This document shows, piece after piece, positions 3,859-17,743 of a stretch of 18,685 nucleotides of DNA. The translations under genes and the position numbers were made by a program. The DNA is from Sphingomonadaceae bacterium (GTDB lineage Bacteria > Pseudomonadota > Alphaproteobacteria > Sphingomonadales > Sphingomonadaceae). Location: contig JACDGO010000007.1 of the NCBI GenBank assembly GCA_013821585.1, positions 1 through 18,685 of the forward strand, in the 5' to 3' direction. The notes beneath the pieces were generated by a model. It did not search any database and was not told the origin of the DNA. It saw only the letters and a list, made by a program, of their open reading frames with translations. Positions within the stretch are counted from its first letter, which is position 1, and every line of letters begins with the position of its first letter.

Positions 3859-3874
3859 GGGGTGCCGGCGCCCC
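3859..3874. terminator. Short GC-rich palindrome between convergent genes
   Basis: The sequence GGGGTGCCGGCGCCCC can fold back on itself with one G-T wobble, but leaves almost no loop. It lies in the 149-bp gap between the 3' ends of the ndh gene and the SMP-30 gene, the right place for a bidirectional terminator. There is no T run on either side, so an intrinsic terminator is only a weak possibility. I see nothing else in this gap. Confidence 0.25.
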
Positions 3875-3885
3875 TGATAGCGCGC

Positions 3886-4767
3886 CTATTGCGCCATCAG
3901 TGACCGCTCGATGCCCTGCTCACCAGGCTTTAGCCTGAACAGCGCTCCGGCAAGCGGCTCGCGGTGCTTTTCGGCTTCGCTCATCTTGTCGGACGCGCTG
4001 GTCACAAACAATGTGTCGAGATTCCTGCCGGCGAACGCACACATCGTTGGCTGGCTGACCGGTAGATGGATATCTCGGTCGACCGATCCGTCAGCGCGGA
4101 AGCGGCGAAGCCTGCCGCCCCCATGGAGCGCGCACCAATAGCCTCCGTCCGTGTCGATCGCGGCCCCGTCGGGGATGCCCAGACCCTCCCCGATAGTCGC
4201 GAACAGGCGCCGGTTCGACAGGGTGCCGCTCGCAACCTCATAATCGAATGCGAAGATTTCGAGCGCATTGCTGTGCGAGAGATAGAAGGTGTGACCGTCC
4301 GCGCTCCATGCCATGCCATTGTGCAGCTCGGCGGCGTCAGGCTCGGGCCGCAGCCCGCCGGCTTGCGTGAAGCTGTGCAAGCAACCGGCCTGTGCGGGCG
4401 GATCGCCGTCTAGTGGATCGAACATCACGCCTACCCAGAATCGGCCCTGCGTATCGCATGCCGCCTCGTTGAAACGGAACAGCGCCGGATCGAACGGCGG
4501 AGGTGCGAGCAGGGTCAGTCCGCCGTTCTCCAGATCGAGCCGGTGAAGCCCCTCGCGGAGCGCAACCAGCGCGCCACCACCCTCTAGCAGGGCGAATCCT
4601 CCTATGTCGCTTGTCAGCGGCCAGCTTGAGATAGCCTCAGTCTCAGGAATGTAGCGATGCAGCGCTGGCGCCTTGACGTCGATCCAATAGAGCGCAGCCT
4701 CGTTTGCGACCCAGGTTGGCGACTCGCCGATCGTGGCATGGGCATCCAACGCGACACCGATCTGCAT
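3886..4767 (-). CDS. SMP-30/gluconolactonase family sugar lactonase
   Basis: A cytoplasmic six-bladed beta-propeller lactonase that opens sugar-acid lactones using a divalent metal. Numbered from the ATG at 4767, the expected metal ligands are all in place: E15 in GESPTW, N150 in LHNGMAWSADG and D200 in IPDGAAIDTDG. The substrate-side pair R98 and N100 (LFRFNEAACDTQGRFWVG) corresponds to R101/N103 of human SMP-30. Length, 293 residues, is normal. I chose the ATG at 4767 over the GTG at 4773 because GGAGGA sits about 7 bases before the ATG but only 1 base before the GTG. There is no signal peptide. The gene is divergent from the sugar isomerase gene across a 101-bp shared leader, which suggests joint control and a common pathway. 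The exact lactone cannot be read from sequence. Confidence 0.92.
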   Translation of the reverse strand: MQIGVALDAHATIGESPTWVANEAALYWIDVKAPALHRYIPETEAISSWPLTSDIGGFALLEGGGALVALREGLHRLDLENGGLTLLAPPPFDPALFRFNEAACDTQGRFWVGVMFDPLDGDPPAQAGCLHSFTQAGGLRPEPDAAELHNGMAWSADGHTFYLSHSNALEIFAFDYEVASGTLSNRRLFATIGEGLGIPDGAAIDTDGGYWCALHGGGRLRRFRADGSVDRDIHLPVSQPTMCAFAGRNLDTLFVTSASDKMSEAEKHREPLAGALFRLKPGEQGIERSLMAQ

Positions 4768-4868
4768 GTGCACGTCCTCCGGAATTGTATGAAACGATCG
4801 GCCCGGCGAGACGTTGCGGGATCTGTCTGGGGCGTTCGTGCATCAAGCTACAGAGGAGAATCTATTAG
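4768..4868. promoter_or_regulatory. Divergent promoter region of the sugar cassette
   Basis: These 101 bases separate the start codons of the SMP-30 gene (minus) and the isomerase gene (plus), so promoters for both must lie here or overlap the coding starts. Clear ribosome binding sites are visible at both edges: GGAGGA for the minus gene, and GAGGAG at 4853-4858, ten bases before the ATG at 4869. I could not identify convincing -35/-10 boxes or a clean operator palindrome, and no regulator gene is present in the window. Confidence 0.55.
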
Positions 4869-5729
4869 ATGATCGACCTCCCGTTCATGTTCGGAATCAG
4901 CGAGTTCACCACGATGCCGTGGTCGTTCGATGAGGATGTCGAACGCTACGCGAAGCTCGGCGTTGACACCATCGAGGTGGTCGAAGCCAAACTAGATGAA
5001 CGGCGGTTCGCTGAGCAAATGCAGTCGATCACGATAGCGGGGTTGGGGATCAGTGGTGTGCAGCCGAAGGTCCGCACATTCTTCAACAGCAAGATGACGC
5101 CTGAACCGAAGCCGCTAGACGAGAGAGTGGCGTGCCTGCGCGCATCGATCGAGCGGCTGGGCAAATTCGCACCCGGCGTGCCCTTCATCACCAACACTGG
5201 CGCGCATCCGAAAGGCGACATGGCCGAGGCGATGAAGGTCGCCGGCGAGGCGCTCAAGGAGCTGGCGAGCGTCGCCGCCGACAATGGCGTCACACTCGCG
5301 CTGGAGCCGCTCAATCCCACCTCCGTCAATGTGGAGAGTGCGATCTGGACGGTTGATCAGGCCCTTGACGTGATCGAGATGACCGGCAGTGACCATGTCG
5401 GGCTTTGCCTGGACTATTGGAACATCTGGCAGAATGCCGGGATCGAGTCCGCGATCACGCGGGCCGGCGACCGCATCTTCACCGTACAGGCAAGCGACTG
5501 GCGCACGCCGCGCTCCTTGGCCGACAGGATCATACCGGGGGAGGGAGATATTCCCTTGAGCCGCCTGATCGCGGCGACGCGCGCCACCGGGTACGACAAA
5601 CCTTGGGTGGTGGAGATCTTCTCGCAAGACGTAGCGGACTCTCTCTACGATAGCGACCTTGAAGAGGTCATCCGCCGGTGCCGCAGCGGAATGGCGGCAG
5701 CCTGGGCGGGCTCGGATGATCAGGGATAA
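4869..5729 (+). CDS. Sugar phosphate isomerase/epimerase (xylose isomerase-like TIM barrel)
   Basis: A 286-residue single-domain protein of the AP-endonuclease-2/xylose isomerase-like TIM barrel superfamily, which isomerises or epimerises sugars or sugar acids with a divalent metal. Core features are a strand-like start (FMFGISEFTTMPWSFDEDVE), metal-ligand-type E146 in LALEPLNP, D182 in GLCLDYWN, the late segment DRIIPGEGDIPLSRLI (typical loop before the last strand) and E249 in WVVEIFS. Q207 in FTVQASDW sits where many relatives have a metal-binding His, so it may define a subgroup. The start is supported by GAGGAG ten bases upstream. It leads a probable operon with the SDR gene (164-bp gap) and the GH130-like gene. 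The substrate is unknown. A hydroxypyruvate isomerase-like role is an alternative. Confidence 0.85.
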   Translation: MIDLPFMFGISEFTTMPWSFDEDVERYAKLGVDTIEVVEAKLDERRFAEQMQSITIAGLGISGVQPKVRTFFNSKMTPEPKPLDERVACLRASIERLGKFAPGVPFITNTGAHPKGDMAEAMKVAGEALKELASVAADNGVTLALEPLNPTSVNVESAIWTVDQALDVIEMTGSDHVGLCLDYWNIWQNAGIESAITRAGDRIFTVQASDWRTPRSLADRIIPGEGDIPLSRLIAATRATGYDKPWVVEIFSQDVADSLYDSDLEEVIRRCRSGMAAAWAGSDDQG

Positions 5730-5893
5730 CCCGGACGCGGCCAGCAGACAGGCAGAGCAAGGCGGCGCCTCGCACACGCAAAGATTTATTGGTCCAGAGT
5801 CGGCCCTAGCGGATCAACACGCAATGCAGGACGTTCTCGCTCGAAACTAGGTCACACAGCCGTCTTTCCGGCCACGCCGCAACGGAGAAGCCC

Positions 5894-6676
5894 ATGATCG
5901 ATCTCAATCTGAAGGGCAGGATCGCATTCGTCACCGGCGGCGAGTCCGGAATCGGCGCCGCCTGCGTCGCAGCGCTTGCGGCCGCTGGTGCCGACGTCGG
6001 AGTGATCTATTTCAAAGATAAGCAGGCCGGCGAAGCTAGCGCTGCCATAGCGACCGGGCTGGGTCGCAAAGCGGTGTCCATTCAGGCCGATATCAGCGTC
6101 GAGAAGGATGTAGAGAGCGCGTTTGACAAAATCGGGAAGGCGATCGGCGTCCCCGACATCCTTATCAACTCGGCGGGTAAGAACATGTCCGGCGTTAAGG
6201 TCTCGGAGATGCCGACGAAGCAATGGCAGAGGCTGATCGACACCGATCTCACCGGCAGCTTCTTCACCTCGCGCCGCTTTGTGCAAAACCTGAAGGGTTC
6301 AGGCAAGTTGGCGGCCATCATCAATATCACCTCGATCCATTCGAGCGTAATGCGGGCAGGCGGCGCGGACTATGATTCAGCGAAGGGCGGCCAGACCAAC
6401 CTTACCAAGACCCTATCACTCGAGGTTGCTGAGCACGGCATAACCGTCAATGCCATCGCGCCCGGCATGATCTTGACGCCGATGAACGACGAGGCGCTGC
6501 ACGACAAATCATATCGCGACAAGCTGACGAAGAGCATTCCGCTCAGGCGCGCCGGCAAGCCGGAAGAGGTCGCGGGCGTCGCGGTGTTCCTTGCCTCGCC
6601 GGCGGCAGCGTACATCACCGGGTCCACGGTGACGATCGACGGCGGCCTTTCGCTCCAGCTCGGTCAGGGCGCATGA
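5894..6676 (+). CDS. SDR family oxidoreductase, probable sugar dehydrogenase
   Basis: A 260-residue classical short-chain dehydrogenase/reductase. It shows the cofactor motif TGGESGIG (residues 14-21), the NAG-type motif as NSAG (92-95), and the catalytic S147, Y160 and K164 (TSIHSS, ADYDSAKGG). It also has the family end TGSTVTIDGGLSLQLG. D-rich beta2 residues that would fix NAD versus NADP are not obvious: the segment is VGVIYFKDKQAG, so cofactor preference is open. It resembles glucose 1-dehydrogenase and gluconate 5-dehydrogenase type enzymes, but SDR substrates cannot be assigned from sequence alone. GGAG lies seven bases before the ATG. Its last codon overlaps the start of the GH130-like gene (ATGA), so the two are co-translated. 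The 164 bases before it hold no gene that I can support. Confidence 0.9.
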   Translation: MIDLNLKGRIAFVTGGESGIGAACVAALAAAGADVGVIYFKDKQAGEASAAIATGLGRKAVSIQADISVEKDVESAFDKIGKAIGVPDILINSAGKNMSGVKVSEMPTKQWQRLIDTDLTGSFFTSRRFVQNLKGSGKLAAIINITSIHSSVMRAGGADYDSAKGGQTNLTKTLSLEVAEHGITVNAIAPGMILTPMNDEALHDKSYRDKLTKSIPLRRAGKPEEVAGVAVFLASPAAAYITGSTVTIDGGLSLQLGQGA

Positions 6677-7566
6677 CGCTGGGGTTCGAGGTCGAGCGGA
6701 TCGACGACGTCGCGTTGGACGGACCGTACGATCTTCTCGCCAAGAACCTGATGAGTCCGTTCGCGTGGCGCGTTGATGGCAATGCTGGGCTGATGGTGTT
6801 GGTACGCGCCGTGCCGCCCGACAAGGGTAAGGACGAAGAGAGCGGGCGGATCTGGCACGGCCGCAGCGGCAGCGATGGACTGTCCTTCCGGATGAACGAT
6901 ACACCACTCCTTGTGCCTGGCGTGCATGGCGACGACGCCATGGGCTGCGAGGATCCCACCGTGGTGCAGACCGACGATGGCTATGTCATCTTTTATACGG
7001 GTGTCGACAAAGGCAAGCGCGGACATCTGCTCTACGCCACCGGAAGCGACATGCGATCGCTCGAGAAGCGCGGCATTGCCCTTCCGAACAGCAAGAGTGA
7101 GCACAGCAGCAAGGAGGCGACGCTGCTTCGCCGAGGGGACAGTTGGCACCTGATGTACGAATATTCACACGACGGCCACTCGCTCATCAGCCTTACCGAT
7201 GGCGAGGGACCTGCAGGGCCGTGGCATGAGCAGCCGGACCCCTTCTCACCTCGCCCAGGCAAATGGGACGGCTGGCATCTTTCGACCGGTCCGCTGCTGC
7301 GCAGCGATCCCGAGCGGCCAGTGATGTTTTACAACGGAGCTCACACGGACGCTGACTGGGGGATCGGCTGGGTCGCTCTGTCGCCTGACCTGCGGACCGT
7401 TACGGGGCGCAGCGACGATCCATTGATCGCGCCGCCAGCAAATGTCGCGGGGCCGCGCGACATCTCGTTTGCCGCTTCCGTGATCGATACCGACGGGACG
7501 ATCTGGCTATATTACTCTCGCAACGATCGTGAATTGAAGCGCGCTACCGTTCGCCAGATCCAATGA
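6673..7566 (+). CDS. GH130-like glycosidase/phosphorylase (five-bladed propeller)
   Basis: A 297-residue protein resembling glycoside hydrolase family 130 (mannosyl-glycan phosphorylases and related hydrolases) and the wider GH43/GH32/GH130 five-bladed propeller group. The best signature is GCEDPT at residues 91-96, matching the conserved acidic GxEDP motif of GH130. Here Thr follows the Pro where many phosphorylases carry Arg. Propeller-like blade repeats follow: GYVIFYTGVD, SWHLMYEYSHDG, PVMFYNGAHTD, GTIWLYYSRND. There is no signal peptide, so it should act in the cytoplasm on an imported oligosaccharide or glycoside. The start overlaps the SDR stop (ATGA), indicating translational coupling. 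If it lacks the phosphate-binding residues it may be a hydrolase rather than a phosphorylase. Substrate is unknown. Confidence 0.75.
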   Translation: MTLGFEVERIDDVALDGPYDLLAKNLMSPFAWRVDGNAGLMVLVRAVPPDKGKDEESGRIWHGRSGSDGLSFRMNDTPLLVPGVHGDDAMGCEDPTVVQTDDGYVIFYTGVDKGKRGHLLYATGSDMRSLEKRGIALPNSKSEHSSKEATLLRRGDSWHLMYEYSHDGHSLISLTDGEGPAGPWHEQPDPFSPRPGKWDGWHLSTGPLLRSDPERPVMFYNGAHTDADWGIGWVALSPDLRTVTGRSDDPLIAPPANVAGPRDISFAASVIDTDGTIWLYYSRNDRELKRATVRQIQ

Positions 7567-7692
7567 TAGGCACCCGCCAGGTGACATCGAGCGTGCGGCA
7601 GCTGCGCTGTGGGAGTGATCAGGCCCCCGGCTTGCGCTGCCCGGACCCGCTTCGGAGAAAGTGGCGAGCTGCGGTGAAGTGGAAGGAACATC

Positions 7693-7752
7693 ATGACGAA
7701 GCAGCGATGGTCTACGAACGAGTTTTAGGACGAGGCTGTGCGGCTGACATAG
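7693..7752 (+). pseudogene. Remnant of an IS3-family orfA transposase
   Basis: Twenty codons read MTKQRWSTNEF, stop, DEAVRLT, stop. This is the start of an IS3-family OrfA (usual form MTKxRWSxxEFxxEAVRL, a helix-turn-helix protein), interrupted by two in-frame TAG codons. GGAAGG lies shortly before the ATG. The GC-rich leader from about 7610 may be the rest of the element's left end, but I could not define an inverted repeat. The remnant stops about 28 bases before the IS5-family element, and I do not see its continuation on the other side. Confidence 0.6.
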
Positions 7753-7780
7753 GTCTTTGATATCGTATTAGGCGCGCTTA

Positions 7781-7798
7781 GAGTCCGTTTGAGAATGT
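7781..7798 (+). repeat. IS5-family left terminal inverted repeat
   Basis: GAGTCCGTTTGAGAATGT, matching the complement of 8661-8678 at all 18 positions. It is preceded by the target duplication TTA (7778-7780). It lies just past the transposase stop codon at 7799. Confidence 0.9.
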
Positions 7799-8597
7799 TC
7801 ATGGATGAACGATTCTGCGCAGCAGGAGGCTTCCGAGGGCGACGTGGATCATGGCTTCGGAGACATCGAGGCGCTGTTCGTAGTCGCGGACGAGGCGTTT
7901 GCATCGGGTCATCCAGCCGAACGTTCGCTCGACCACCCAGCGTTTGGGCAGCACCTTGAAGCCGCCCTCCTTGTCGGTGCGTCTGACGATTTCGAGGATG
8001 AAGTCGCGATAGGCGGCAGCATCCATAAGCCGCGTCCGGTCATAGGCACCATCAGCGAACAGATGCTTGAGCCACGGCCAGCGCTGGCGGATGGCGGCGA
8101 CGATTTCCTGAGCCCCTGCGCTATCGGAGATGTCGGCTGTGGTCAGGTTGACCATCAGCAGACGGCCATCGGTATCGACCGCGATGTGGCGCTTGCGCCC
8201 AACGATCTTTTTGGCAGCGTCGAACCCGCGCTTTTGGGCGGCCGGGGCCTTGATCGACTGGCTATCGACGATGGCTGCCGTCGGCGACTGCTCGCGGGCC
8301 TCGCGCTCGCGGTCGAGCATCAGTGCGACGTCGTGGAGGGTGCGAAACAACAGCCGGCGCACAAACCGCCGGAACCACCAATACACCGTCTGCCATGGCG
8401 GAAAGTCGTTCGGCAGCATCCGCCAGCCGCCGCCCGTCCGTGCCAGGTAACGCAGCGCGTCGAGAACTGCCCGAAGGTCCGTCGTCGGCTTGCGACCGCG
8501 CTTCGACGCGCCCGGCAGAAACGGCTCGATGAAAAGCCCACTCCTCATCGGTCAGATCGGTCGGATAACGCTTCGCACGTCGTTCGAAATCAGCCAT
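7799..8597 (-). pseudogene. IS5-family DDE transposase with a frameshift near its N-terminus
   Basis: The main frame (ATG 8548 to the stop at 7799) encodes a typical IS5-family transposase: a DUF4096-like N-terminal part (RGRKPTTDLRAVLDALRYLARTGGGWRMLP...) and a DDE domain with D in VDSQSIKA, D in FADGAYDRT and E in WVVERTFGWM. The expected first ~22 residues (MADFERRAKRYPTDLTDEEWAF) lie in another frame starting at 8597, and the shift falls at about 8529-8535 in CTTTTCATCG. One extra base explains it. Some IS5 groups use programmed frameshifting, but usually further inside the gene and in the -1 direction, so a mutation or sequencing error is more likely. Initiation at the ATG at 8548 would give a 249-residue protein missing only the extreme N-terminus. 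Confidence 0.85.
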
Positions 8598-8660
8598 CCG
8601 GCCACGGCTCGCTCGGGTCCACATCCCGAGCCTGAATCACATCCGATCAACCGCTTCAAC

Positions 8661-8678
8661 ACATTCTCAAACGGACTC
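8661..8678 (-). repeat. IS5-family right terminal inverted repeat
   Basis: ACATTCTCAAACGGACTC, the exact complement of the left repeat at 7781-7798, followed by the target duplication TTA (8679-8681). It lies upstream of the transposase start. Confidence 0.9.
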
Positions 8679-8698
8679 TTAGGCCTTTGTTTGGCAAC

Positions 8699-8729
8699 CG
8701 TGCCTTTTCGACCGACGGGCACGTATGAT
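8699..8729 (+). promoter_or_regulatory. Candidate promoter/operator for the oxidase operon
   Basis: Between the IS end and ctaG there is a near-consensus -10 box, TATGAT (8724-8729), 33 bases before the ATG. A perfect 6-bp inverted repeat, CGTGCC (8699-8704) and GGCACG (8718-8723) with a 13-base spacer, lies directly against it, in the position expected for a regulator site. The -35 position (TGCCTT at 8701-8706) is poor. GAAGGG at 8747-8752 is a plausible ribosome binding site for ctaG. I see no match to a known regulator consensus, and a six-base repeat can arise by chance. Confidence 0.35.
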
Positions 8730-8761
8730 CACCGTTTCCGCGCATAGAAGGGCGTAAGGTA

Positions 8762-9541
8762 ATGGACATAAATGCGACTGCGGTGATGCCCTATTGTGGG
8801 TCGCCCCCTACCGCGGCGACACTGGCCGGGCGCTGGAATCTCGATCCAATGCTGCTCGTGGCTTTGGTGGGAATCGCAGCGCTATATTTCCTGTGGACGG
8901 CACGCGCGGGATCACGACGTGAAGCGTGGCTCTTTGGTCTTGGCTGGGCCACGACTGGATTGGCCCTAATATCGCCGTTATGCGCCCTGTCGGTGTCATT
9001 GTTCGGCGCGCGGGTTGGTCAGCACATGATTCTCACGCTGGTCGCCGCCCCGCTCGTCGCGCTTTCGTTGCCCGCAAACTGCAGGCGCGTACCGGGTCAG
9101 GAATTATGGGCCGCGCTCGCGTTCGCGATCGCTCTATGGGTTTGGCATTCGCCGGGACCCTATGATGAGACATTCGTCAGCCCGGCTATTTATTGGGCAA
9201 TGCACATCACCACCTGGGGCACTGCGGCTTTCTTCTGGTGGACGGTGCTTCGTGCGCCTCGCGACCGATTGGGCATGTCGGTTGCAGCGACAGTCGTGAC
9301 CGGGTTGCAGATGGCACTGCTCGGAGCGGTCATTACGTGGGCGCGAGCTCCGCTCTATTGGCCGCATCTCGTTACTCCGTTCGAATGGGGCTTCACGCCA
9401 TTGCAAGATCAGCAACTGGGCGGGACTTTGATGTGGGTTCCGGGTAGCTTCATTTTCCTGGCCGCCATCATTTTGCCGCTGGCGCTCGTGCTTCGCCGCG
9501 AACCGCATTCCGGCCTTGTTGGAGCCTTGGGTGAAGCATGA
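8762..9541 (+). CDS. ctaG: Cytochrome c oxidase assembly protein, CtaG (caa3 type)
   Basis: A multi-pass membrane protein of the caa3_CtaG family, involved in assembling the copper centres of caa3-type oxidases. It has 259 residues and about seven predicted membrane segments. Family hallmarks are visible: GQHMILTLVAAPLVALSLP, WHSPGPYD, an MHITTWGTAAFFWW segment and the late loop LQDQQLGGTLMWVPG. The start at 8762 follows GAAGGG about ten bases upstream. It is the first gene of a seven-gene operon; its stop overlaps the coxB start as ATGA. In act-linked clusters this gene usually follows alternative complex III genes, which here are broken and displaced to 1126-1876. Confidence 0.92.
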   Translation: MDINATAVMPYCGSPPTAATLAGRWNLDPMLLVALVGIAALYFLWTARAGSRREAWLFGLGWATTGLALISPLCALSVSLFGARVGQHMILTLVAAPLVALSLPANCRRVPGQELWAALAFAIALWVWHSPGPYDETFVSPAIYWAMHITTWGTAAFFWWTVLRAPRDRLGMSVAATVVTGLQMALLGAVITWARAPLYWPHLVTPFEWGFTPLQDQQLGGTLMWVPGSFIFLAAIILPLALVLRREPHSGLVGALGEA

Positions 9542-10608
9542 CGCCTTCATCGCCTCACGACGCCACGAGCGCGCGCTGGCCACTTGAATATCTGACCAGC
9601 GCCGGGCCGCATGCGGCGCCGGTTGTGGGATTGACCTGGTTTCTGCTCGTCATTTCCGTTGTGGTCATCCTCATCTTCACCGTGGCGGTGACCTTGGGAG
9701 TGATCGTCCGCCGCCAGCGAACCACCGGCGAACCGTTATCGACAGCCTCGGTAGAACCCAGTCAGAGAGGCCTTTCCTGGGTTTATATCGGTATGCCCTT
9801 GACGTTGGTGGCGCTAATCGTTGCCTTGTTCTGGTCGATGCTCGTCCTTGCCAAGATCGATCGACCCGCGACCCCCCCGACCCTGACTATCACGGTCACC
9901 GGTAGACAGTGGTGGTGGCAGGTCAATTATCCTGCGAGCGCCGGAACGCGCGCTTTTGAAACCGCGAACGAGATCCATATTCCGGTTGGCCAGCCGGTGC
10001 TCGTCAGGCTTCGGGGCGGGGACGTCATCCATTCTTTTTGGGTGCCGGCATTGGCGGGCAAAACTGATACCATCCCGGGCCAGGTAAACGTGACGTGGCT
10101 GCAAGCCGATCGACCGGGCGTCTATCGTGGTCAGTGCACCGAATATTGCGGCATGCAGCACGCCAATATGGGCTTTTTGGTGTTCGCCGATCCGCCGGAA
10201 GTATTCGCGGCATGGCGACACGATCAGGAAGGGCTAGCGACGGACACTCCGTCGGGGCCGGCGGCTGCGCCCGTGAAGATGACGGCTGCCTATAATGGAC
10301 TGCTCCCTCCCGTATCGGCGGGGAACGGGAAAGCGATCTTCGTACAGCATTGCGGGATGTGCCATACGATCGATGGGACGGCGGCTTACGGGTATCGACC
10401 GGGCGGCCACGGCCTTCGCGGCCCCAATCTGACGCATCTGATGAGCCGACGGACGCTCGCGGGTGTCACTCTTACGAACAACACGAACAATCTCGCCGGC
10501 TGGATCTCCGATCCTCAGGCGCAGAAACCCGGCGTGCTAATGCCGACCACCCATCTGAGCGGCCCCGAGCTTCAAGCGGTGGTCGCCTATCTGAAGGCGC
10601 AGCGATGA
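9538..10608 (+). CDS. coxB: Cytochrome c oxidase subunit II with fused cytochrome c (caa3 type)
   Basis: Subunit II accepts electrons at a dinuclear CuA centre and passes them to subunit I; the fused C-terminal cytochrome c makes this a caa3-type enzyme. Two N-terminal membrane helices (about residues 24-50 and 80-105) are followed by TGRQWWWQVNYP. The CuA ligands are H165, C200, E202 (backbone), C204, H208 and M211 in the CTEYCGMQHANM loop. The cytochrome domain has CGMCH (272-276) and probable axial M335 (GVLMP). Length is 356 residues, usual for the fused form. The periplasm-facing electron-transfer domains match the cytochrome c proteins encoded later in the operon. ATGA overlaps exist at both ends. 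Confidence 0.95.
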   Translation: MTPSSPHDATSARWPLEYLTSAGPHAAPVVGLTWFLLVISVVVILIFTVAVTLGVIVRRQRTTGEPLSTASVEPSQRGLSWVYIGMPLTLVALIVALFWSMLVLAKIDRPATPPTLTITVTGRQWWWQVNYPASAGTRAFETANEIHIPVGQPVLVRLRGGDVIHSFWVPALAGKTDTIPGQVNVTWLQADRPGVYRGQCTEYCGMQHANMGFLVFADPPEVFAAWRHDQEGLATDTPSGPAAAPVKMTAAYNGLLPPVSAGNGKAIFVQHCGMCHTIDGTAAYGYRPGGHGLRGPNLTHLMSRRTLAGVTLTNNTNNLAGWISDPQAQKPGVLMPTTHLSGPELQAVVAYLKAQR

Positions 10609-12563
10609 ATACTGCTAAGCCCGATGAATGGGAAGACGCCCGCACGCCGAAGATCGCCGAGATCGCGGGAGACTTCCCCGGCAATCGACTGGAGAAAATG
10701 TGGGAGACGGAGCCCGGCTGGAAGGGGTGGCTAGGCAGCGTCGATCACAAGCAGATCGGCATCCGTTACATCATCACCGCCTTCGCCTTTCTCCTGCTCG
10801 GCGGTCTCGAGGCGTTGGTGATGCGCATCCAGTTGGGCGGACCCGGCGAGACGGTGCTGACCCCTCAGGAATATAACGTGCTATTCTCGATGCACGGGAT
10901 CAGCATGATCTTTCTTTATGCGTCTCCCGTTCTCACGGGCTTTAGCAACTATCTTTGGCCCTTGCTGCTCGGATCGCGCGATATGGCCTTTCCGCGGCTG
11001 AACGCGTTGTCCTACTGGGTTTATCTCGCGGCCGGACTGTTCATCTATGCCGGGTTCGTGACCGGACACGGACCGAGCGACGGCTGGTTCAATTATGTCC
11101 CTTACGCGCTCAGGGATTACAGTCCTGGCCTCAATATGGACGTATATGCGCTGGGCATGATTCTGCTCGGTATCTCGACAACAGTGGGCGCTGCAAACTT
11201 CATCGTCACGTTTCTCCGCAACCGCGCGCCCGGCATGTCGCTCAACCGTGTGCCGGTTCTGCTGTGGGGTACGCTCACTGCCTCGGCCGCCAATATCATG
11301 GCGGTACCCAGCGTCAGCCTCGCCTTCTTCATGCTGTGGATGGATCGGCAGTTCGGGACGCATTTCTTTGACGCCAGACAGGGCCAGCCGCTTCTCTGGC
11401 AGCATCTGTTTTGGATGTTCGCGCATCCCTGGGTCTATGCGATCGTCCTGCCGGCGATGGGGATGGTCTCGGATGGCTTGCCCACCTTCTGCAGACGCCC
11501 GCTCGTCGGTTACACGCTGGTCGTGCTCGCCACCGTCAGCACGATGGCGTTCGGCTTCGGCGTCTGGGTCCACCACATGTTCGCAACCGGGCTGCCCAAT
11601 CTTTCACTGTCCTTCTTCAGCGACGCATCGCTAATCATCACCATACCGAGCGCCGTGGCAGTCATGTGTTGGACAGCTACAATTTGGACGGGGCGACCGG
11701 TCGTTACTACCGCTTTTCTGTATTTCGCGAGCATGATCGTCTTGTTCGTGATCGGCGGCGTTTCCGGTGTAGTGACGGCTGCTGCAGCATCCGACTGGCA
11801 ACTGACAGACACCTATTTTGTGGTCGCGCATCTTCATTACACGCTGATAGGCATCAATCTTTTCCCCGTAATCGGAGGAGTTTATTACTGGTTTCCGAAG
11901 ATGACCGGACGCCTGCTCAATGAACGGCTCGGCAAATGGAACTTCTGGGTGATGTTTATCGGTTTCAATGTCGCATTCCTTCCGATGCACACCCTGGGAC
12001 TGCTTGGCATGCCGCGGCGAATCTATACGTATCCTGTAGATATGGGATGGTCAGGCCAGAATCTTGTCGTATCTTTGGGCTCGGCGATGTTCGCGGTTGG
12101 CGTGTTGCTGTTTCTGATCAACGTCGTCGTATCACTCAAACGCGGGAAGGTGGCCGGTCCCAATCCTTGGGGGGCTGGCACGCTTGAATGGGCTATATCG
12201 TCACCGCCGCCGGTCTATAATTTTAAGGTTATCCCGATCGTTGCTAGCCGACACCCGTTGTGGGAAGAAGCGATGAACGAGTCCGATGAGCGGAGCAGCA
12301 TCGAGCGCGGGCTGCTGTTAGATCAGGGCAAGGAAACGATTGCGACATCGCCGCTCGATGGCGAACCGAACCTTATCCTCGAGATGCCGGGTGATAGCCT
12401 AGCCCCTTTCAGCGTCACGGTCGGGATGACGCTCGTGTTCAGCGGCGCCCTGTTGCGGCAGTGGTGGCTCGTCGCGATCGGAATCGCCGCGATCGTCATC
12501 TCGCTGATCGACTGGTTCTGGCCGCGTCGTGTTCATGCCGGACTGGAGAAGGTAAATGGATGA
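10605..12563 (+). CDS. ctaD: Cytochrome c oxidase subunit I (caa3 type), lacking classical D- and K-channel residues
   Basis: The catalytic, heme- and CuB-carrying subunit of a heme-copper oxidase, 652 residues. I use the ATG at 10605, which overlaps the coxB stop (ATGA); the frame is open further upstream but only in the shadow of coxB. Ligands are intact: H97 and H411 (heme a), H409 (heme a3), and H274, H323 and H324 (CuB). Y278, the His-Tyr cross-link partner, is also kept (HPWVY). D126 and N133 at the D-channel mouth (SRDMAFPRLN) are conserved. The classical Glu of HPEVY is W276, with F-A before the His rather than the Y-S of A2-type enzymes. The K-channel Lys position is A352 (IPSAVAVMCW), with Ser for the usual Thr at 349. 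After the 12-helix core, a soluble linker and an extra C-terminal helix pair (about 590-640) suggest a fused small-subunit region. Confidence 0.95.
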   Translation: MNTAKPDEWEDARTPKIAEIAGDFPGNRLEKMWETEPGWKGWLGSVDHKQIGIRYIITAFAFLLLGGLEALVMRIQLGGPGETVLTPQEYNVLFSMHGISMIFLYASPVLTGFSNYLWPLLLGSRDMAFPRLNALSYWVYLAAGLFIYAGFVTGHGPSDGWFNYVPYALRDYSPGLNMDVYALGMILLGISTTVGAANFIVTFLRNRAPGMSLNRVPVLLWGTLTASAANIMAVPSVSLAFFMLWMDRQFGTHFFDARQGQPLLWQHLFWMFAHPWVYAIVLPAMGMVSDGLPTFCRRPLVGYTLVVLATVSTMAFGFGVWVHHMFATGLPNLSLSFFSDASLIITIPSAVAVMCWTATIWTGRPVVTTAFLYFASMIVLFVIGGVSGVVTAAAASDWQLTDTYFVVAHLHYTLIGINLFPVIGGVYYWFPKMTGRLLNERLGKWNFWVMFIGFNVAFLPMHTLGLLGMPRRIYTYPVDMGWSGQNLVVSLGSAMFAVGVLLFLINVVVSLKRGKVAGPNPWGAGTLEWAISSPPPVYNFKVIPIVASRHPLWEEAMNESDERSSIERGLLLDQGKETIATSPLDGEPNLILEMPGDSLAPFSVTVGMTLVFSGALLRQWWLVAIGIAAIVISLIDWFWPRRVHAGLEKVNG

Positions 12564-13161
12564 TGCGATCGTTACAGACGCGCCATTGCCGGTCGGATCC
12601 GCCGGACGTAATTCCACAGCCTGGTTCGGCATGCTCTGTTTGATTGCAACCGAAGGGTCGCTGTTCGCCTATCTTTTGTTCAGTTACGCTTACTTCGGCG
12701 TGCAGAATAACTCGGATTGGTTGCCGACGCTCCACCCATCTTTCAAATACGGCCTGCCGGGAACTGTCGTTCTGTTCGCATCCAGCGGCACTATCTGGTG
12801 GAGCGAGCGAGGCATGAAAAGAGGCAATCGCAGCCAGCATCTAGTTGGTCTCGTCGTGACGATTTTGTTGGGCCTCGCCTTTATCGCGCTCGAACTCCTT
12901 GACTGGCACAGCAAAGGCTTTTCGCTTTCGAGCCGAGCCTATGGGTCCTTTTATTTCACGATTACAGGCTTCCATCTTTTGCACGTCATCGTGGGTATTG
13001 CGGTTCTAATGGTCGTGCTTGGCTGGTCCCTCGCCGGTTATTTCACCGAACGCCGCCACATGCACGTAACGATCAGCGGCGTTTACTGGCATTTCGTCGA
13101 CGTGGTCTGGATATTTGTCTTCTCGACCTTTTTCCTAGCACCATACGTGGTCGCATCATGA
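12556..13161 (+). CDS. coxC: Cytochrome c oxidase subunit III
   Basis: A membrane subunit of the heme-copper oxidase that stabilises subunit I and the proton uptake side. It has 201 residues and about five predicted membrane helices, the short form typical of caa3 and related bacterial oxidases. Recognisable features are FGMLCLIATEGSLFAYLLFSYAYF, a central FYFTITGFHLLHVIVGI helix and the C-terminal HVTISGVYWHFVDVVWIFVF, the standard end motif of the family. The start overlaps the ctaD end by eight bases, with GGAGAAGG just before it. The stop overlaps the next start (ATGA). Confidence 0.93.
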   Translation: MDDAIVTDAPLPVGSAGRNSTAWFGMLCLIATEGSLFAYLLFSYAYFGVQNNSDWLPTLHPSFKYGLPGTVVLFASSGTIWWSERGMKRGNRSQHLVGLVVTILLGLAFIALELLDWHSKGFSLSSRAYGSFYFTITGFHLLHVIVGIAVLMVVLGWSLAGYFTERRHMHVTISGVYWHFVDVVWIFVFSTFFLAPYVVAS

Positions 13162-13601
13162 CCCAGTTACCCACGCAGATCGGCCACCCAGCGCCACATC
13201 GCGACAGAGTGTCGGTACCCTGGCTATTGGCGGGGCTCGCCATCCCTCCCGTCGCCTGGACGCTGGAGATGCTGGTTGGCTTCGGTATCAGCAGCAATGC
13301 ATGCCCGCTGACGCAGGGCTCGACTTCGCAAGTTGGGTTCAGCGGTGAAGCAACGCTCCTGATTGTGTTGCAGATCGCCTGTCTGATCGTGGCGATTGCA
13401 TCTGGATTGATGTCATGGCGCCATTGGCGGCGGGTGCGTCTTGAAAACAAGGATAGCCAACATTCGCATTTGACACTCGGCGAAGGGCGAACGCGCTTTT
13501 TGGCGCTCGCGAGCATGTTGACGGCCGGTACCTTTTCAATCGCGATCGTGTTCAATCTTCTTGAACCGATCCTGATCCCACTCTGTTGGAGTTTGCGATG
13601 A
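13158..13601 (+). CDS. Small membrane protein of the oxidase operon, function unknown
   Basis: A 147-residue protein with about three or four hydrophobic segments (near residues 20-45, 64-86 and 110-140) separated by a basic loop (SWRHWRRVRLENKD). It has no cofactor motif that I can see. I do not recognise a named family. It is locked into the operon by ATGA overlaps at both ends, so it is very likely co-translated with oxidase subunits. It could be an accessory subunit or an assembly factor, but that is inference from position only. Two Cys residues (N-A-C-P-L, and L-C-W-S near the end) do not form a metal motif. Confidence 0.7.
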   Translation: MTQLPTQIGHPAPHRDRVSVPWLLAGLAIPPVAWTLEMLVGFGISSNACPLTQGSTSQVGFSGEATLLIVLQIACLIVAIASGLMSWRHWRRVRLENKDSQHSHLTLGEGRTRFLALASMLTAGTFSIAIVFNLLEPILIPLCWSLR

Positions 13602-13996
13602 ACGGATCACGATCATGGCTCGTGGCGTGCATCGTCTGGGCTGTCGTGGCATGCCCGGCCTTGCTGTTAGGGGGGTGCGCGCCCAGCGCCCCCAAGCCAG
13701 AGCGTTCCGGCAAGATTAGCGATCGCGAGGCGGGTGCGATCTGGATCAGTCGCTCGGGCTGCGGATCATGTCACCAGATTCCCGGCATCATGCACGCTAA
13801 TGGGCTCGTTGGGCCGCCGTTGATCCATTTTTCCAAGCGGACGATCATCGCCGGTTACCTTCCTAATACGCGCGATAATCTGACCCACTGGATTCAGCAC
13901 CCCCAACAGTTCGCGCCAGGCAACGCGATGCCCGACGCCGGTCTGACCGACCAGCAGGCGCACGACATCGTCGCCTATCTTTATGGGCTGGAATGA
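13598..13996 (+). CDS. Cytochrome c lipoprotein
   Basis: A 132-residue monoheme cytochrome c. The ATG at 13598 overlaps the previous stop (ATGA), and I prefer it to an upstream in-frame TTG at 13586. A signal peptide ends in the lipobox L24-G25-G26-C27, so the mature protein should be lipid-anchored on the periplasmic side. The heme motif is CGSCH (55-59), with M111 in GNAMP as the likely axial ligand. From the heme to the end it aligns with the cytochrome domain fused to subunit II: G-L-x-G-P-x-L-x-H, R-T, A-G, N-T, N-L, W-I, P-Q, M-P and V-A-Y-L recur in the same order. It may deliver electrons to the oxidase or be a detached copy of that domain. Confidence 0.88.
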   Translation: MNGSRSWLVACIVWAVVACPALLLGGCAPSAPKPERSGKISDREAGAIWISRSGCGSCHQIPGIMHANGLVGPPLIHFSKRTIIAGYLPNTRDNLTHWIQHPQQFAPGNAMPDAGLTDQQAHDIVAYLYGLE

Positions 13997-14610
13997 AGAT
14001 GGAGGCGCGGTGGAAAGGTCGCGCAGCTCGATTTTGGGCGCGCAATAAGCGCACCGTGTTGGCGTTCGTTGCCGGCGGTGCAGCGGCCGGTCTGCTTGCT
14101 GGACTTTGCGCGCTCGCGGTTGTCGAGTTTGGGCTTTATGATATCGCCGCGTCTCAGCCCCACAACAAGATCGTTAGCTGGGCGCTGCACAAGACGTTCA
14201 AGCGATCGGTCAAGCTGCGTGCGGGGGGCGAATTCGTGCCTTCTTTCACCCAAGAGCGGGTGATTTCCGGGTTCAGACAATATCAGGCCGACTGCATGAT
14301 GTGTCATGGTGGACCCGGGGTATCTCGCGCCGATTGGGTAAAGGGACTCGAGCCGACCCCACCGTTCCTACTGGAAAGCGGCAACGAGTGGACCTCGTCG
14401 CAACTCGACTACATTCTGGAGAAGGGCATCAAAATGAGCGCCATGCCATCCTGGGGCGAAACCCGCTCCAAGGACCAGATTTGGAACCTCGTCGCCTTTT
14501 TGAAAGCACTTCCGGGAATATCGCCTTCGCAGTTTGCCCAAATGCAAGGGCAATATCCGTTGGATAAGTCGCCGCCTCGGCAGCGCGCGACGCCTGAACA
14601 AATCCATTAG
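13993..14610 (+). CDS. Membrane-anchored monoheme cytochrome c
   Basis: A 205-residue cytochrome c, the last gene of the oxidase operon. A basic N-terminus and one hydrophobic helix (about residues 21-46) form a signal anchor, leaving the rest in the periplasm. The heme motif is CMMCH (101-105), and M151 in MSAMPSWG is the likely axial ligand. The following KDQIWNLVAFLKALPGISP is the usual C-terminal helix of class I cytochromes. The start overlaps the previous stop (ATGA), and another ATG follows at 13999. It has a different heme environment from the lipoprotein cytochrome before it, so the two probably do different jobs in feeding electrons to the oxidase. I see no terminator after it. Confidence 0.9.
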   Translation: MKMEARWKGRAARFWARNKRTVLAFVAGGAAAGLLAGLCALAVVEFGLYDIAASQPHNKIVSWALHKTFKRSVKLRAGGEFVPSFTQERVISGFRQYQADCMMCHGGPGVSRADWVKGLEPTPPFLLESGNEWTSSQLDYILEKGIKMSAMPSWGETRSKDQIWNLVAFLKALPGISPSQFAQMQGQYPLDKSPPRQRATPEQIH

Positions 14611-14632
14611 AGTCCAACGATTCAAGAGCGTA

Positions 14633-14905
14633 ATGCTGCGCGTCAAGTTAACTATTCCGCTTCCCAGACCTCCACACGTCGGAGTTCCACCTTCGCTACT
14701 GGTCTCGAGCGCAGGACCGATCTCGGCGCTATCAGACTATCCGATACCCAGTCGACTACGGAGGAATCCCAGCTTGCCGACGCAAATTGAGCACCTTGTA
14801 ATTATCATTTTGGAGAACCGTTCGTTCGACAATCTGCTGGGCGGGCTCTATCCGGGCAGGGAGGACTTTGACGGGCTCACAGGCCCATCGAGACTGCGCG
14901 GCTGA
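14633..14905 (+). pseudogene. N-terminal remnant of a phosphoesterase (phospholipase C/acid phosphatase family)
   Basis: The frame from ATG 14633 contains IEHLVIIILENRSFDNLLGG followed by LYPGREDFDGLTG. This is the conserved first metal/nucleophile region (ENRSFDN) of the phosphoesterase family that includes phospholipase C and acid phosphatases. It then stops at 14905, after about 90 residues, where full-length members have several hundred. The portion before IEHL (about 46 residues, proline-rich) is not conserved, so the real start may be nearer 14774 (TTG). The family's next block appears on the opposite strand immediately downstream (see next entry), so this is a broken gene. Confidence 0.7.
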
Positions 14906-15526
14906 GCCATATAATTGTCGACGAAACCGCCCATGTCGGGCTTGCCACGGGGCGTTCGGCATTCCGATTCTAGGCCGGCGCCTCGAAGGCAATCCATGCA
15001 CATCTCTCTTGAGCGCGCATAGCGATCCGAGCAGGCCCGCACTTTCGCGTTCACTGGGTCGTCCATTAGATCCCAGCCGCCGTCGCGCCGGCCTGGCTGG
15101 CAATAGTCGCAGGCTGATGCGGCGCAGCTCCGCTTCGCCTGAAGCCACGCTGCGCAGCACGCCGGACATGCCAAATATACGCGATGCCTTGCAAAAACGC
15201 GTCCTATCCTCCGTGGTCTGCATCTGTATCTCCACTCGTCCTTGCCGTCCGTCGAGACGTAGAAGGTGCAGCCCTCGTCAAAGTCATAAACAAGGAAATC
15301 AGCGCCGCGGAACCCTAGTCTCGCCGACCTCGTGAGCCGCGCCGTCATCATCATGAGCGGTTGGACCGCAGAGAACAAAGATTCTGAGCAGCGAAGGTGA
15401 ACAAAGCATGTTCATCCATCATGTGCGGGCAACTTCGCGTGGCCTCTCTAATCAAATAGGAATCGACGGTGGATATCTTTGAAAACTTCATCGTTGCAAT
15501 CAGGATACAGCGAAGGGATTGAGGGC
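14906..15526 (-). pseudogene. Gene-poor stretch with an inverted phosphoesterase piece
   Basis: There is no intact gene in these 620 bases. On the minus strand, about 14900-14940 encodes PDMGGFVDNYMAQP, which matches the block that normally follows FDGLTG by some tens of residues in phosphoesterases of this type (MxGFVxNY). This suggests that an internal segment of the same gene has been flipped. Further along the minus strand, one frame is open to 15378 and encodes stretches such as GADFLVYDFDEGCTFYVSTD. I do not recognise it, and codon use is not convincing. The last part, 15380-15526, should contain the promoter of the next gene; TTGAAA at 15479-15484 is a possible -35 box, but I see no good -10. 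GAGGG lies just before the ATG at 15527. Confidence 0.4.
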
Positions 15527-16504
15527 ATGTCATCAGCGAGGGGCCTGTGGCCGAGTCGCTTACTTCGTTGCCCTGGCAGCGCTGAACCTATCGAGGGATA
15601 TCGCGGCATCCAGATCGACGACGATCGGCTCGCTGCTATTACATCTCCCGAGGCTCCATTGCTCGAGCTGTACAAGGGAACGATCCACGGCGAAGGCCCG
15701 GCATGGCAGCCGACGCATGAGCGGCTGGTGTGGTCGGACGTGCCAAATCGTCGGCTGCTGGGCTGGTATCTCGACGGACATGTAGAGGTGGTTATCGACG
15801 GCACCTGGTTCATGAACGGCAACGCGGTCGAAGCGAGCGGTACTCTTGTCCACTGCGAGCACGGTCGACGCTGTATCAGTCGTGGCGGCGATTACGATAC
15901 CGCGCCTGAGCCGATCGTGACGCATTATCGCGGCAAGCGGATCAATTCTCCCAATGACGTGGCGGTCGCGCCCAACGGGATGATCTGGTTTACCGATCCA
16001 ACCTTCGGGATCATCATGCCCAACCAGGGCGCACTGGCGGAGCCCGAGGTCGACCACCGCAGTGTCTATCGCTTCGATCCGGCGAGCGGCGATCTCGCTC
16101 GAATGGCCGATTTCGAGCAGCCCAACGGCCTCGCGTTTTCAGCCGATGGCAGAATGCTTTACGTATCTGACACGTCGCTGTCGCTGGGCGAGGTGCCGCG
16201 CCACAAAGCCGGGACGAAGCACGAAATCATCGTGTTCGACGTCGCGGAGGACGGCGCGCTCTCCAACCGACGGTTCTTCTGCCACACCGATCACGGCTAT
16301 CCCGACGGCTTCGCCGTCGATGCGCGCGGCTGGGTGTGGACCACTGCGGCGGACGGCGTGCACATATGGGCAGCGGATCGGGTAAAGCTGGGTTTTATCC
16401 CGACACCGTCGGTAGCGTCCAATTGCACGTTCGGTGGCACGGACGGGCGGCGGCTGTTCATAGCGGCGACGAACTACCTGCTGGCGATCGACCTGAGCGC
16501 ATAA
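15527..16504 (+). CDS. SMP-30/gluconolactonase family lactonase (second copy)
   Basis: A 325-residue beta-propeller lactonase of the longer gluconolactonase subgroup. From ATG 15527 (preceded by GAGGG) the metal ligands are E56 (HGEGPAW), N143 (INSPNDVAV), N200 (QPNGLAFSADG) and D260 (YPDGFAVDARG). Other family marks are LVWSDVPNRRLLGW, LVHCEHGRR and IWFTDPTFGI. The frame is open back to a TTG at 15479, but the extra residues are not conserved. It belongs to a different branch from the SMP-30 at 3886-4767, as shown by the NSPND and CEHG motifs, so this is not a recent duplication. There is no signal peptide in the chosen form. It converges on the VOC gene, and their 3' ends overlap by 47 bases. 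Confidence 0.9.
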   Translation: MSSARGLWPSRLLRCPGSAEPIEGYRGIQIDDDRLAAITSPEAPLLELYKGTIHGEGPAWQPTHERLVWSDVPNRRLLGWYLDGHVEVVIDGTWFMNGNAVEASGTLVHCEHGRRCISRGGDYDTAPEPIVTHYRGKRINSPNDVAVAPNGMIWFTDPTFGIIMPNQGALAEPEVDHRSVYRFDPASGDLARMADFEQPNGLAFSADGRMLYVSDTSLSLGEVPRHKAGTKHEIIVFDVAEDGALSNRRFFCHTDHGYPDGFAVDARGWVWTTAADGVHIWAADRVKLGFIPTPSVASNCTFGGTDGRRLFIAATNYLLAIDLSA

Positions 16505-17309
16505 GCTGGTGCAAATGCCCATCGGGATCGCGGAGAAGCGCCTCCGTCCCCGCGCGCCAGACGATGCGTGTTGCGGCGAGGTCGTTGGCTGCGAGCGGGG
16601 CGTGCGGGCGGCCGACCGGCGTTCGATATCCAAGCAACTCGACATGCGGCGGCATGGTTGGCGGGTTCATTGGCACGACATCGACCTTTACGTCATCGAG
16701 GCCATCGAGCGCGACTTGGGTCGGACCGTAGTTGAGCGATGTCTTGGCTTCGCTCAGCGCGTGATCGACGTAGAAGCGGTGGCTGTCGGCGATGTTCGAT
16801 ACCGAGATCGCGCTGTGATCGATCCCCATCATGCCCCTGCCCGGCCATGTAGGATTGGAGCCGGCGGGAAATTGCAGGAACTCGAGCGGGTGCCCATCGG
16901 GATCGCGGAACTTGACTGCGGTTACGCCGCCCGCCGATTGCGGCAGCTCGATCGGGCCATCTCGACTAATTGGTGTTGCGCCGGCGATGGCCGCGCGGCG
17001 CAATGCCGATCGAACATTGTCGGTCACCAGCGCTAGGTGCTGGAAAATTAGATCGGCGGCGTTGGCGTCGGGGGGATAGGGGCAACCCGGCTCCGCGAAG
17101 CAGTCTAGATCTAGGCGGCTCTCGCCCATGCTCAGCGCCTGCCGCTCGCCTGCTCCGGCGAGCCCCAGCAGCTGCATTTCCTCTGCCGCGATCAGCTCTC
17201 TCGCGCCGACCGAAAAGCCGATCGCGCGGTAGAAAGCAATCAGCCTATCGAGATTGGCGGTTACAATCCGGAAGCCGACAATCGCGCGCAGCGTCACTGC
17301 AGGTGGCAT
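16458..17309 (-). CDS. VOC family protein with two glyoxalase/dioxygenase-like domains
   Basis: A 283-residue protein with two vicinal-oxygen-chelate modules. The first is at about residues 8-148 (IVGFRIVTANLDRLIAFYRA ... VKFRDPDGHPLEFLQF). The second is at about 158-270 (MGIDHSAISVSNIADSHRFY ... LLRDPDGHLHQLM). Each has the typical opening strand, FYxxxxGF-type motif and DPDGHxxxL end. I place the start at ATG 17309, because the upstream in-frame extension is only the shadow of the cupin gene; the two genes overlap by 16 bases. Members include glyoxalases, extradiol dioxygenases, epimerases and fosfomycin-type enzymes, so the reaction cannot be named. It is the last gene of a minus-strand operon and overlaps the 3' end of the SMP-30 gene. 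Confidence 0.85.
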   Translation of the reverse strand: MPPAVTLRAIVGFRIVTANLDRLIAFYRAIGFSVGARELIAAEEMQLLGLAGAGERQALSMGESRLDLDCFAEPGCPYPPDANAADLIFQHLALVTDNVRSALRRAAIAGATPISRDGPIELPQSAGGVTAVKFRDPDGHPLEFLQFPAGSNPTWPGRGMMGIDHSAISVSNIADSHRFYVDHALSEAKTSLNYGPTQVALDGLDDVKVDVVPMNPPTMPPHVELLGYRTPVGRPHAPLAANDLAATRIVWRAGTEALLRDPDGHLHQLMRSGRSPAGSSSPL

Positions 17310-17743
17310 GGTTCGCGCTGCGGATCGACATGGAGCTGAACCGTCATCAGGCAGCAAGGTTCGTCGCCGATAGTGCCCGAGCGGTGTCCCTTCTTGCGGT
17401 CCGTCTCGGTACAGCCCTGATCCTCGCCAAACGAGAAGTCGCCGGGCCCCTGCTCGATTCGGCTGCCATCCATGCTCTCGATCCACCAGCGACCTGAAAG
17501 CACGATGATCCATTGCGGCGCGGGATTCTCGTGCCAGTCGCCAATCCATCCAACCGGCTGGACGGTAAAGACAACTGTCGCCTCACCGCGCTCCATTTTA
17601 TTGTTCCATTGCGGATCGGCGGGGCCGACGCTCTTAAGCTCATAGTCGACCAGCGCACACTGTTTCATCCGGCTGACGCCGTCTTTATCGACGTAGAGAT
17701 GCGAGTAGGGAACTAAGGGCTTCGGCCCGGGATCGTCGCTCAT
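17294..17743 (-). CDS. Cupin-like protein
   Basis: A 149-residue small beta-barrel protein. The central stretch DWHENPAPQWIIVLSGRWWI (from about residue 69) fits cupin motif 1, with H71 and a Gly-ended strand, and IEQGPGDFSFGEDQ followed by H120 (KKGHRSG) fits the second half. Only part of the classical two-His/Glu/His metal set is clear, so metal binding and catalysis are uncertain. The start ATG at 17743 overlaps the DoxX stop (ATGA) and is preceded by AGGAGC. Being sandwiched between DoxX and the VOC gene suggests a role in the same sugar- or aromatic-like catabolic pathway, perhaps as an isomerase or accessory protein. Confidence 0.75.
   Translation of the reverse strand: MSDDPGPKPLVPYSHLYVDKDGVSRMKQCALVDYELKSVGPADPQWNNKMERGEATVVFTVQPVGWIGDWHENPAPQWIIVLSGRWWIESMDGSRIEQGPGDFSFGEDQGCTETDRKKGHRSGTIGDEPCCLMTVQLHVDPQREPCHLQ

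Follow-up and report, generated by a model that had tools for sequence, protein, structure and literature searches.

The oxidase locus and its subunit I

We analyzed an 18,685-nucleotide stretch of DNA from Sphingomonadaceae bacterium (GenBank assembly GCA_013821585.1, contig JACDGO010000007.1, positions 1 to 18,685; hereafter, the window), which carries an operon for a heme-copper oxidase, and we focused on the subunit I gene, COX1 (10605..12563, + strand). Its frame is uninterrupted over 652 amino acids (aa), including a C-terminal extension with two more predicted helices (model residues 600-616 and 620-638), and its product matches PF00115 with 480 bits. Among solved structures, the nearest in sequence are actinobacterial aa3 COX1 chains (six sequences, E 1e-139 to 1e-136), the match to ba3 being far weaker (E 1e-11 in the Protein Data Bank sequence search); with these best matches, and with a grouping among A-family rows in a tree lacking a B/C outgroup, the protein is placed in the A family. 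Three other members of the W class and one protein of the E/Q class, both described below, score above the cut-off of the NCBIfam model CtaD/CoxA, and the window protein scores slightly below it. The AlphaFold model has a mean predicted local distance difference test score (pLDDT) of 69, and the structural look-up made with it supports the fold alone.

Positions are given hereafter in the numbering of the window protein, which maps onto Rhodobacter sphaeroides as W276=E286, A352=K362, S349=T359, Y278=Y288, S289=S299, D126=D132, and N133=N139. The initial annotation had read a Trp at the place of the D-channel Glu and an Ala at the place of the K-channel Lys; both readings are borne out by this mapping and by the codons, TGG for Trp276 (11430..11432, +) and GCA for Ala352 (11658..11660, +). 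It had also called the alignment between the CuB His pair and helix VIII gapless, which holds against R. sphaeroides, where the spacing is 28 in both proteins (H324-A352 and H334-K362), but not against the actinobacterial chains, where a two-residue gap precedes helix VIII; the match of IPSAVAV to (V/I)PTGIK is undisturbed by this gap.

A class of oxidases with Trp at position 276

We then asked how widely the pair of replacements is shared. Similarity searches, not random sampling, supplied the COX1 rows: we kept the query and the best 120 of 7998 matches of a protein search, the best 80 of at least 540 matching loci of named genomes, and further rows from class, family, and phylum samples, from 25 genomes behind named loci, and from six plasmid loci. 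The pooled 361 rows gave 331 distinct aligned rows once copies were removed. Among them, we found 206 rows with Trp at 276 (the W class; the protein search gave 115 of them and the loci 91), 70 canonical rows with Glu and Lys (E/K), 52 that keep Glu and carry Gln for Lys (E/Q), two A2 rows with the motif YSHP and a kept Lys, and one row with Asp and Gln (D/Q). The simple pattern HPWVY was present in 119 of the 121 sequences formed by the query and its best 120 matches, and the alignment shows Trp in the remaining two. At position 352, the W class has Ala (185), Ser (7), Gly (6), Thr (4), or Val (4), and never Lys. Since Trp is found in 206/206 distinct rows and Lys in 0/206, sequencing error, a pseudogene, and chance are excluded, and the loss of both residues recurs in the relatives compared.

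The rest of the active site is in place, as had been claimed: each of the six heme and CuB His is kept in at least 205/206 rows, the cross-link Tyr278 in 206/206, Asp126 at the D-channel entrance (10980..10982, +) in 205/206, and Asn133 (11001..11003, +) in 206/206. One has to keep in mind that A2 oxidases also lack Glu286 and have a Tyr-Ser pair one turn away. The window has Phe-Ala there (F272/A273), as stated in the initial annotation, and the 119 pattern-matched relatives have Phe-Gly or Phe-Ala, whereas the A2 rows compared have Tyr-Ser. A carboxylate or Lys on a neighboring turn, which could have served as a substitute donor, was searched for in the W alignment and not found: positions 268-288 are free of Asp, Glu, and Lys in 206/206 rows, and positions 338-358 are free of Asp, Glu, Lys, Arg, and His in 205/206, the remaining row having Asp. 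We consider it nearly certain that this class of A-family proteins exists and that it lacks the equivalents of both E286 and K362.

W-level matches (at least 64% identity to the query, P0001) occur in at least 6 of the 398 genomes of the phylum sample, own genome included; this is a lower bound, because at most three candidates were scored per genome. In the family sample, they occur in 3/149 genomes. The loci fetched at lower identity were all E/Q, that is, 24/24 at 40-50% in the phylum sample (L208-L231) and 17/17 at 42-46% in the family sample (L116-L132), and the E/Q class is commoner than the W class in both samples. The W members come from records labelled Pseudomonadota, Acidobacteriota, and Gemmatimonadota, several of which are metagenome-assembled genomes. 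Plasmid records matching at 60% or more numbered 19, and the six plasmid loci read comprise five W and one E/Q; the W-class operons lie on plasmids of Methylocella, Mesorhizobium, Paraburkholderia, and Methylocystis (L232-L235, L237), one of them adjoining pqqABCDE. In Methylobacter tundripaludum SV96 (L082), the W-class COX1 seems to be interrupted and is recovered in two pieces: the match stops at about residue 443, and the end is found further on.

Subunit II and the K pathway

CoxB, the subunit II of the window (9538..10608, +), has the CuA ligands and a fused cytochrome c. We looked there for the conserved Glu ahead of the second helix, the entry of the K channel (E101 in R. sphaeroides), after restricting the E/K, E/Q, and D/Q rows to those with C-x-E-x-C; the 87 W rows were left unfiltered. 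This Glu is present in 43/43 E/K rows that have a residue there and absent from the window, as it is from all E/Q (0/44), D/Q (0/2, one sequence fetched twice), and W rows (0/85); an acid within four residues of the position is found in one of the 85 W rows (L027) and in 7/44 E/Q rows. All five CuA side-chain ligands are found in 86/87 W rows (the one incomplete row is truncated by a contig end), and CxxCH is present in 86/87, so that a CuA site and a fused cytochrome c, the marks of the caa3 type, are both found. Residue 202 of the window CoxB lies between the two CuA Cys, at the place of a Glu that is a ligand through its backbone; of the 87 W rows, 36 have Glu here, 46 have Gln (e.g., L025 and L234), and 4 have Ala, Lys, or Val. 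As Lys362 is gone from COX1 and the entry Glu from subunit II, the K pathway, judged by its residues, is dismantled in each of the two subunits, and the site where electrons enter is kept.

These observations bear on the possibility that the enzyme is not an O2 reductase at all, but a nitric oxide (NO) reductase-like protein or a degenerate paralogue. The cytochrome c-dependent NO reductase (cNOR) is likewise one in which no cytoplasmic proton channel was found, according to PMC3084760; the same paper uses the cross-linked Tyr to tell O2 reductases from NO reductases. This Tyr and the metal ligands are kept as given above, and the operon encodes a CuA subunit II, a COX3, and often a CtaG, which leaves this explanation highly improbable.

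Phylogeny and order of losses

We built a tree of 74 rows over 498 columns; positions 276, 352, 111, 69, 223, 227, 230, and 418 were left out. All 24 W rows (24/24) form one group (support 100/99), joined first by the Asp+Gln row (100/93) and then by the E/Q rows (100/100 for W + D/Q + E/Q), this larger clade standing among Lys-bearing rows. The five residue labels need four changes on this tree, which is the minimum possible. On a plain reading, Lys would have been changed to Gln once, and Glu to Trp afterwards, with K362 lost before E286, because the W clade is nested in a larger clade that already has Gln for Lys. The direction of change rests on Lys being general outside W + D/Q + E/Q, as the root is a midpoint root and there is no B/C outgroup.

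The sister of the W class, with Asp at Glu286 and Gln at Lys362, comes from Blastococcus sp. DSM 46786 (L080); this oxidase is a possible intermediate. The E/Q class (L116-L132, L208-L231, L236), sister to W + D/Q, keeps Glu286, has Gln for Lys362 and a helix II Glu at 111 (48/52), and shows Glu in place of the D-channel Asn207 in 44/52; as in the W class, the entry Glu of subunit II is lost.

Comparison with known oxidase types

The W class differs from the A1 oxidases aa3/caa3 (R. sphaeroides, P. denitrificans, mycobacterial aa3) in Glu286 to Trp, Lys362 to Ala, Ser, Gly, Thr, or Val, and the lost subunit II entry Glu. It shares the absence of Glu286 with A2; however, the two A2 rows (L187, L188) keep Lys and have YSHP, whereas Lys is absent from W, whose motif is F(A/G)HPW or close to it. 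The A type is defined by D and K residues in PMC3084760, the K-channel set being Lys354, Thr351, Ser291, and Tyr280; in W rows, Lys is found in 0/206 and Thr is replaced by Ser in 206/206, with Ser289 and Tyr278 kept. The B and C families (ba3, cbb3) have neither Glu286 nor Lys362 either, so working oxidases without these two residues are known outside the A family, as judged from the ba3 and cbb3 residues listed in PMC12901375. The W class differs from them by being A-family by sequence score, by keeping the D entrance, and by lacking the B/C alternative K-channel residues: the alternative K channel of the B type is Thr, Ser, Tyr without D residues, where W has Ala (mostly), Ser, and Ser, and the cross-link Tyr of the C type is in helix VII, where W has Tyr278 in helix VI in 206/206 rows. 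By these residues, the W class does not fit the published A1, A2, or B definitions. Of 1216 curated sequences, four lacked the channel residues of their own family, all nearest to the B type (PMC3084760). In our searches of open-licence literature, supplements excluded, we found neither a Trp at the E286 position nor an A-family class lacking both residues.

Glu69 in helix I (10809..10811, +) is invariant in the W class (206/206) and in the D/Q row, and lies in the column of Asp75 of the E. coli quinol oxidase bo3. The bo3 Gln101 is mostly matched (Gln92), and Arg71 and His98 are not. A quinol oxidase was rejected as a reading of this site, the CuA ligands being present and the Arg71/His98 partners absent.

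The closest description we met is that of the COX operon type a-II, with a COX1 of 630-670 aa, a C-terminal extension, and often a pyrroloquinoline quinone (PQQ) dehydrogenase in the cluster (PMC4013037). The W class is alike in COX1 size, in the extension, and in the PQQ neighbors of 29/87 W loci, with none in the own genome of the window; it differs in that a-II is classed under A1 (PMC6431628), which W does not fit. We infer that the W class belongs to a-II, whose reference is the COX1 of M. extorquens PA1 and which is marked by a COX4-like fusion at the C-terminus, where the window protein has its two predicted helices. There is also an E/Q operon of this size (L236, 637 aa), so that a-II may comprise both classes.

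Kept and class-specific residues, and the possible proton routes

The donors being missing, without a same-helix substitute and with the subunit II Glu lost alongside, some other proton route must serve the active site. The initial annotation had proposed either such a route or an enzyme that pumps poorly or not at all; its premise is strengthened, as both donors are gone, no substitute is found, and the change is ancestral, while a particular route and weak pumping are proposals.

The D-channel residues given for P. denitrificans in PMC3084760 are Asp124, Asn113, Asn131, Asn199, Tyr35, Ser134, Ser193, and Glu278; six of the eight are kept in W, Ser193 being Thr in 204/206 and Glu278 Trp in 206/206. 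In the numbering of the window, the D entrance shows, out of 206 rows, D126 in 205, N133 in 206, N115 in 201, N198 in 206, Y55 in 206, S136 in 203, S191 in 206, and T192 in 204. The E/Q rows, which keep Glu286, differ from W in having rewritten this entrance, with E198 in 44/52 besides E111, and with N115, N133, and N198 in only 0/52, 11/52, and 4/52. This strictly kept entrance would have no reason if the chemistry protons came from the periplasm, as in cNOR, in a non-electrogenic enzyme. Such an enzyme would agree with the absence of both cytoplasmic donors, and coupling to periplasmic dehydrogenases would tolerate the low energy yield. A scan of ionizable residues along the helices, on the other hand, showed no W-specific periplasmic acid chain, Glu69 being in the bo3 quinol-site column, and we regard a periplasmic origin as improbable.

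Several polar positions are near-fixed in W and rare or absent in E/K and E/Q rows, namely T223, T225, N230, S/T111, Y105, S114, T391, and N418. The helix V set Thr223-Thr225-Ser227-Asn230 (11271..11294, +) is found in 206, 198, 200, and 199 of the 206 W rows, respectively, and T223, S227, and N230 would lie on one face of the helix according to their spacing. Thr391 (11775..11777, +) is present in 206/206 W, 4/52 E/Q, and 0/70 E/K rows, and Asn418 (11856..11858, +) in 206/206, 0/52, and 0/70. Asp290 (11472..11474, +), adjoining S299 of R. sphaeroides where helix VI ends on the cytoplasmic side, is an acid in 203/206 W rows and in none of the E/Q (0/52) or D/Q (0/1) rows, E/K rows carrying Gln, Glu, or His. 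T310 and T313 are common to the W class and the D/Q row. The D-side and K-side pores thus both have polar positions of their own, and the route is not readable from the sequence alone.

The main rival to a route through the D mouth is a rebuilt K pore, in which the chemistry protons would enter on the K side and the enzyme would work like the B and C families, with one K-like channel, while being A-family by descent. The path would run from a mouth at Asp290 through Ser289 and a water space left by the small residues at 352 and 355, and then along Thr391, Asn418, and Ser349 to Tyr278. The near-fixed acid at 290 and the nearly or wholly W-specific Thr391 and Asn418 speak in its favor, and, according to PMC12901375, the places of Glu286 and Lys362 are held by Ile235/Thr312 in ba3 and Ala209/Gly286 in cbb3. 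It has to be set against a D entrance conserved in W as strictly as in canonical rows, the missing subunit II entry Glu, an Ala at position 355 (Ser365) in 186/206 rows, and the absence from the W class of the alternative K-channel residues given in PMC3084760; we hold this rival to be possible but rather unlikely.

Operon and genomic neighbors

The oxidase operon of the window includes, besides CoxB and COX1, the CuB assembly factor CtaG (Caa3_CtaG; 8762..9541, +), a short COX3 of 201 aa, CoxC (12556..13161, +), a 147-aa protein without Pfam or NCBIfam match at E 0.001, to which similar sequences occur in 43 of the best 80 related loci (13158..13601, +), a monoheme cytochrome c (Cytochrom_C, SoxX-like; 13598..13996, +), and a second cytochrome c (Cytochrome_CBB3; 13993..14610, +). 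A C-terminal piece of a glucose-methanol-choline (GMC) dehydrogenase near the contig end (18201..18644, −) would be, going by the relatives, a possible electron source.

Upstream, an IS5-family transposase (7799-8548, −) lies between sugar-metabolism genes and the operon, and an NDH-2-like gene (2385-3736) is apparently split into two frames at about 2633. At 1126-1906, a frameshift-split gene for an ActA-like pentaheme cytochrome is followed by a short actB-like start, possibly of actB, which runs into a YD-repeat (RHS-like) fragment; both genes lie about 7 kb upstream of the oxidase. This stretch was recognized by eye, and may be a rearrangement or a misassembly. The act-cta context assumed at first did not hold up: with the window ActA as query, no match was found in the best 80 related loci (0/80) or in the 87 W loci (0/87), a search that had no positive control and that a distant ActA could escape, and NrfD has no match in the own genome, which is 91% complete. 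By these searches, an Act-linked COX (type a-I), with adjacent alternative complex III genes, was rejected.

We surveyed the neighbors by length-filtered tblastn in 87 distinct W loci, which span 4.5 to 22 kb and include some truncated by contig ends, with 20 canonical E/K loci (11-19 kb), taken from genomes that had yielded W or D/Q loci, as controls. Of the W loci, 29 have a PQQ alcohol dehydrogenase, 20 have a GMC dehydrogenase, 46 have a triheme cytochrome c, and 75 have at least one of the three, against 0 of 20 for each and for any in the controls (Fisher 9e-14, a value that overstates independence, because many W loci come from related Burkholderiales); with loose limits, short triheme matches appear in 5/20 control loci. 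Clustering of the open reading frames of 79 loci gave triheme cytochromes in 37 and PQQ dehydrogenases in 18, never both, while one locus holds both by tblastn. The order on the Mesorhizobium INR15 plasmid is pqqABCDE, PQQ dehydrogenase, cytochrome c, coxB, ctaD, cox3, and assembly factor; Methylocella and Paraburkholderia plasmid loci have a GMC dehydrogenase with gluconate 2-dehydrogenase subunit 3, and in one Paraburkholderia plasmid locus, a cytochrome c and arsenic genes are found instead. In 4/5 of the nearest genome relatives read, a PQQ dehydrogenase adjoins the operon. A canonical E/K oxidase is encoded in 22/24 W-oxidase genomes, in which not all matches were fetched, one of the other two having an A2 oxidase, and the own genome of the window also carries one. 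Because of these dehydrogenase and cytochrome neighbors and of the co-resident E/K oxidase, the W oxidase looks like an accessory, dedicated electron outlet.

A proposed mechanism and its significance

The explanation we favor, to which we give an even chance, is that of a working caa3-type class of the A family with a rebuilt relay devoid of Glu and Lys, lowered or no pumping, and a role as outlet for periplasmic dehydrogenases. Protons would still be taken up at the cytoplasmic D entrance (D126, N133, N115, N198, Y55) and passed on by Ser, Thr, and Asn side chains and water, past W276, to the heme-CuB site; S191, T192, T193, S/T111, Y105, and N230 are candidate relay residues. Without the Glu gate, less than one proton would be translocated per electron, or none. 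According to PMC8079940, all pumped protons go through the D channel in the A family, and pumping is probably weaker in the B and C families, which have one K-like channel. The enzyme would serve periplasmic alcohol or sugar dehydrogenases, with the canonical oxidase carrying the main energy conservation.

Several points weigh against this explanation. Lowered pumping, which we consider probable in the W class, is argued from mutants of other oxidases and from no W-class member. The relay is proposed from the residues, beside a model with the mean pLDDT of 69 given above, and the class-specific K-side residues D290, T391, and N418 also point to a rebuilt K pore. Similarity guided the choice of the W rows, which are related, so that a single ancestral event accounts for most of the co-occurrence. 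Among the 87 W loci, 12, several of them short, have no PQQ, GMC, or triheme partner; a PQQ dehydrogenase has no match in the own genome, and the window holds the GMC fragment alone.

Glu286 and Lys362 underlie most models of A-family pumping and define the family types. The W class may be a third kind of A-family oxidase, an idea that stands evenly poised for us, reducing O2 with neither Glu gate nor Lys channel after losing first the K pathway of both subunits and then, to Trp, the Glu, and having a relay new to the family, a stoichiometry other than one per electron, and a private outlet for PQQ or GMC dehydrogenases. A natural class without either residue makes the need of the Glu gate for turnover or pumping testable, as well as the role of a D channel without its end, and a cultivable carrier is available in Paraburkholderia xenovorans LB400 (L025). 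An automatic ctaD annotation implies one pumped proton per electron; for respiration linked to PQQ and GMC dehydrogenases, the energy yield deduced from it may be too high.

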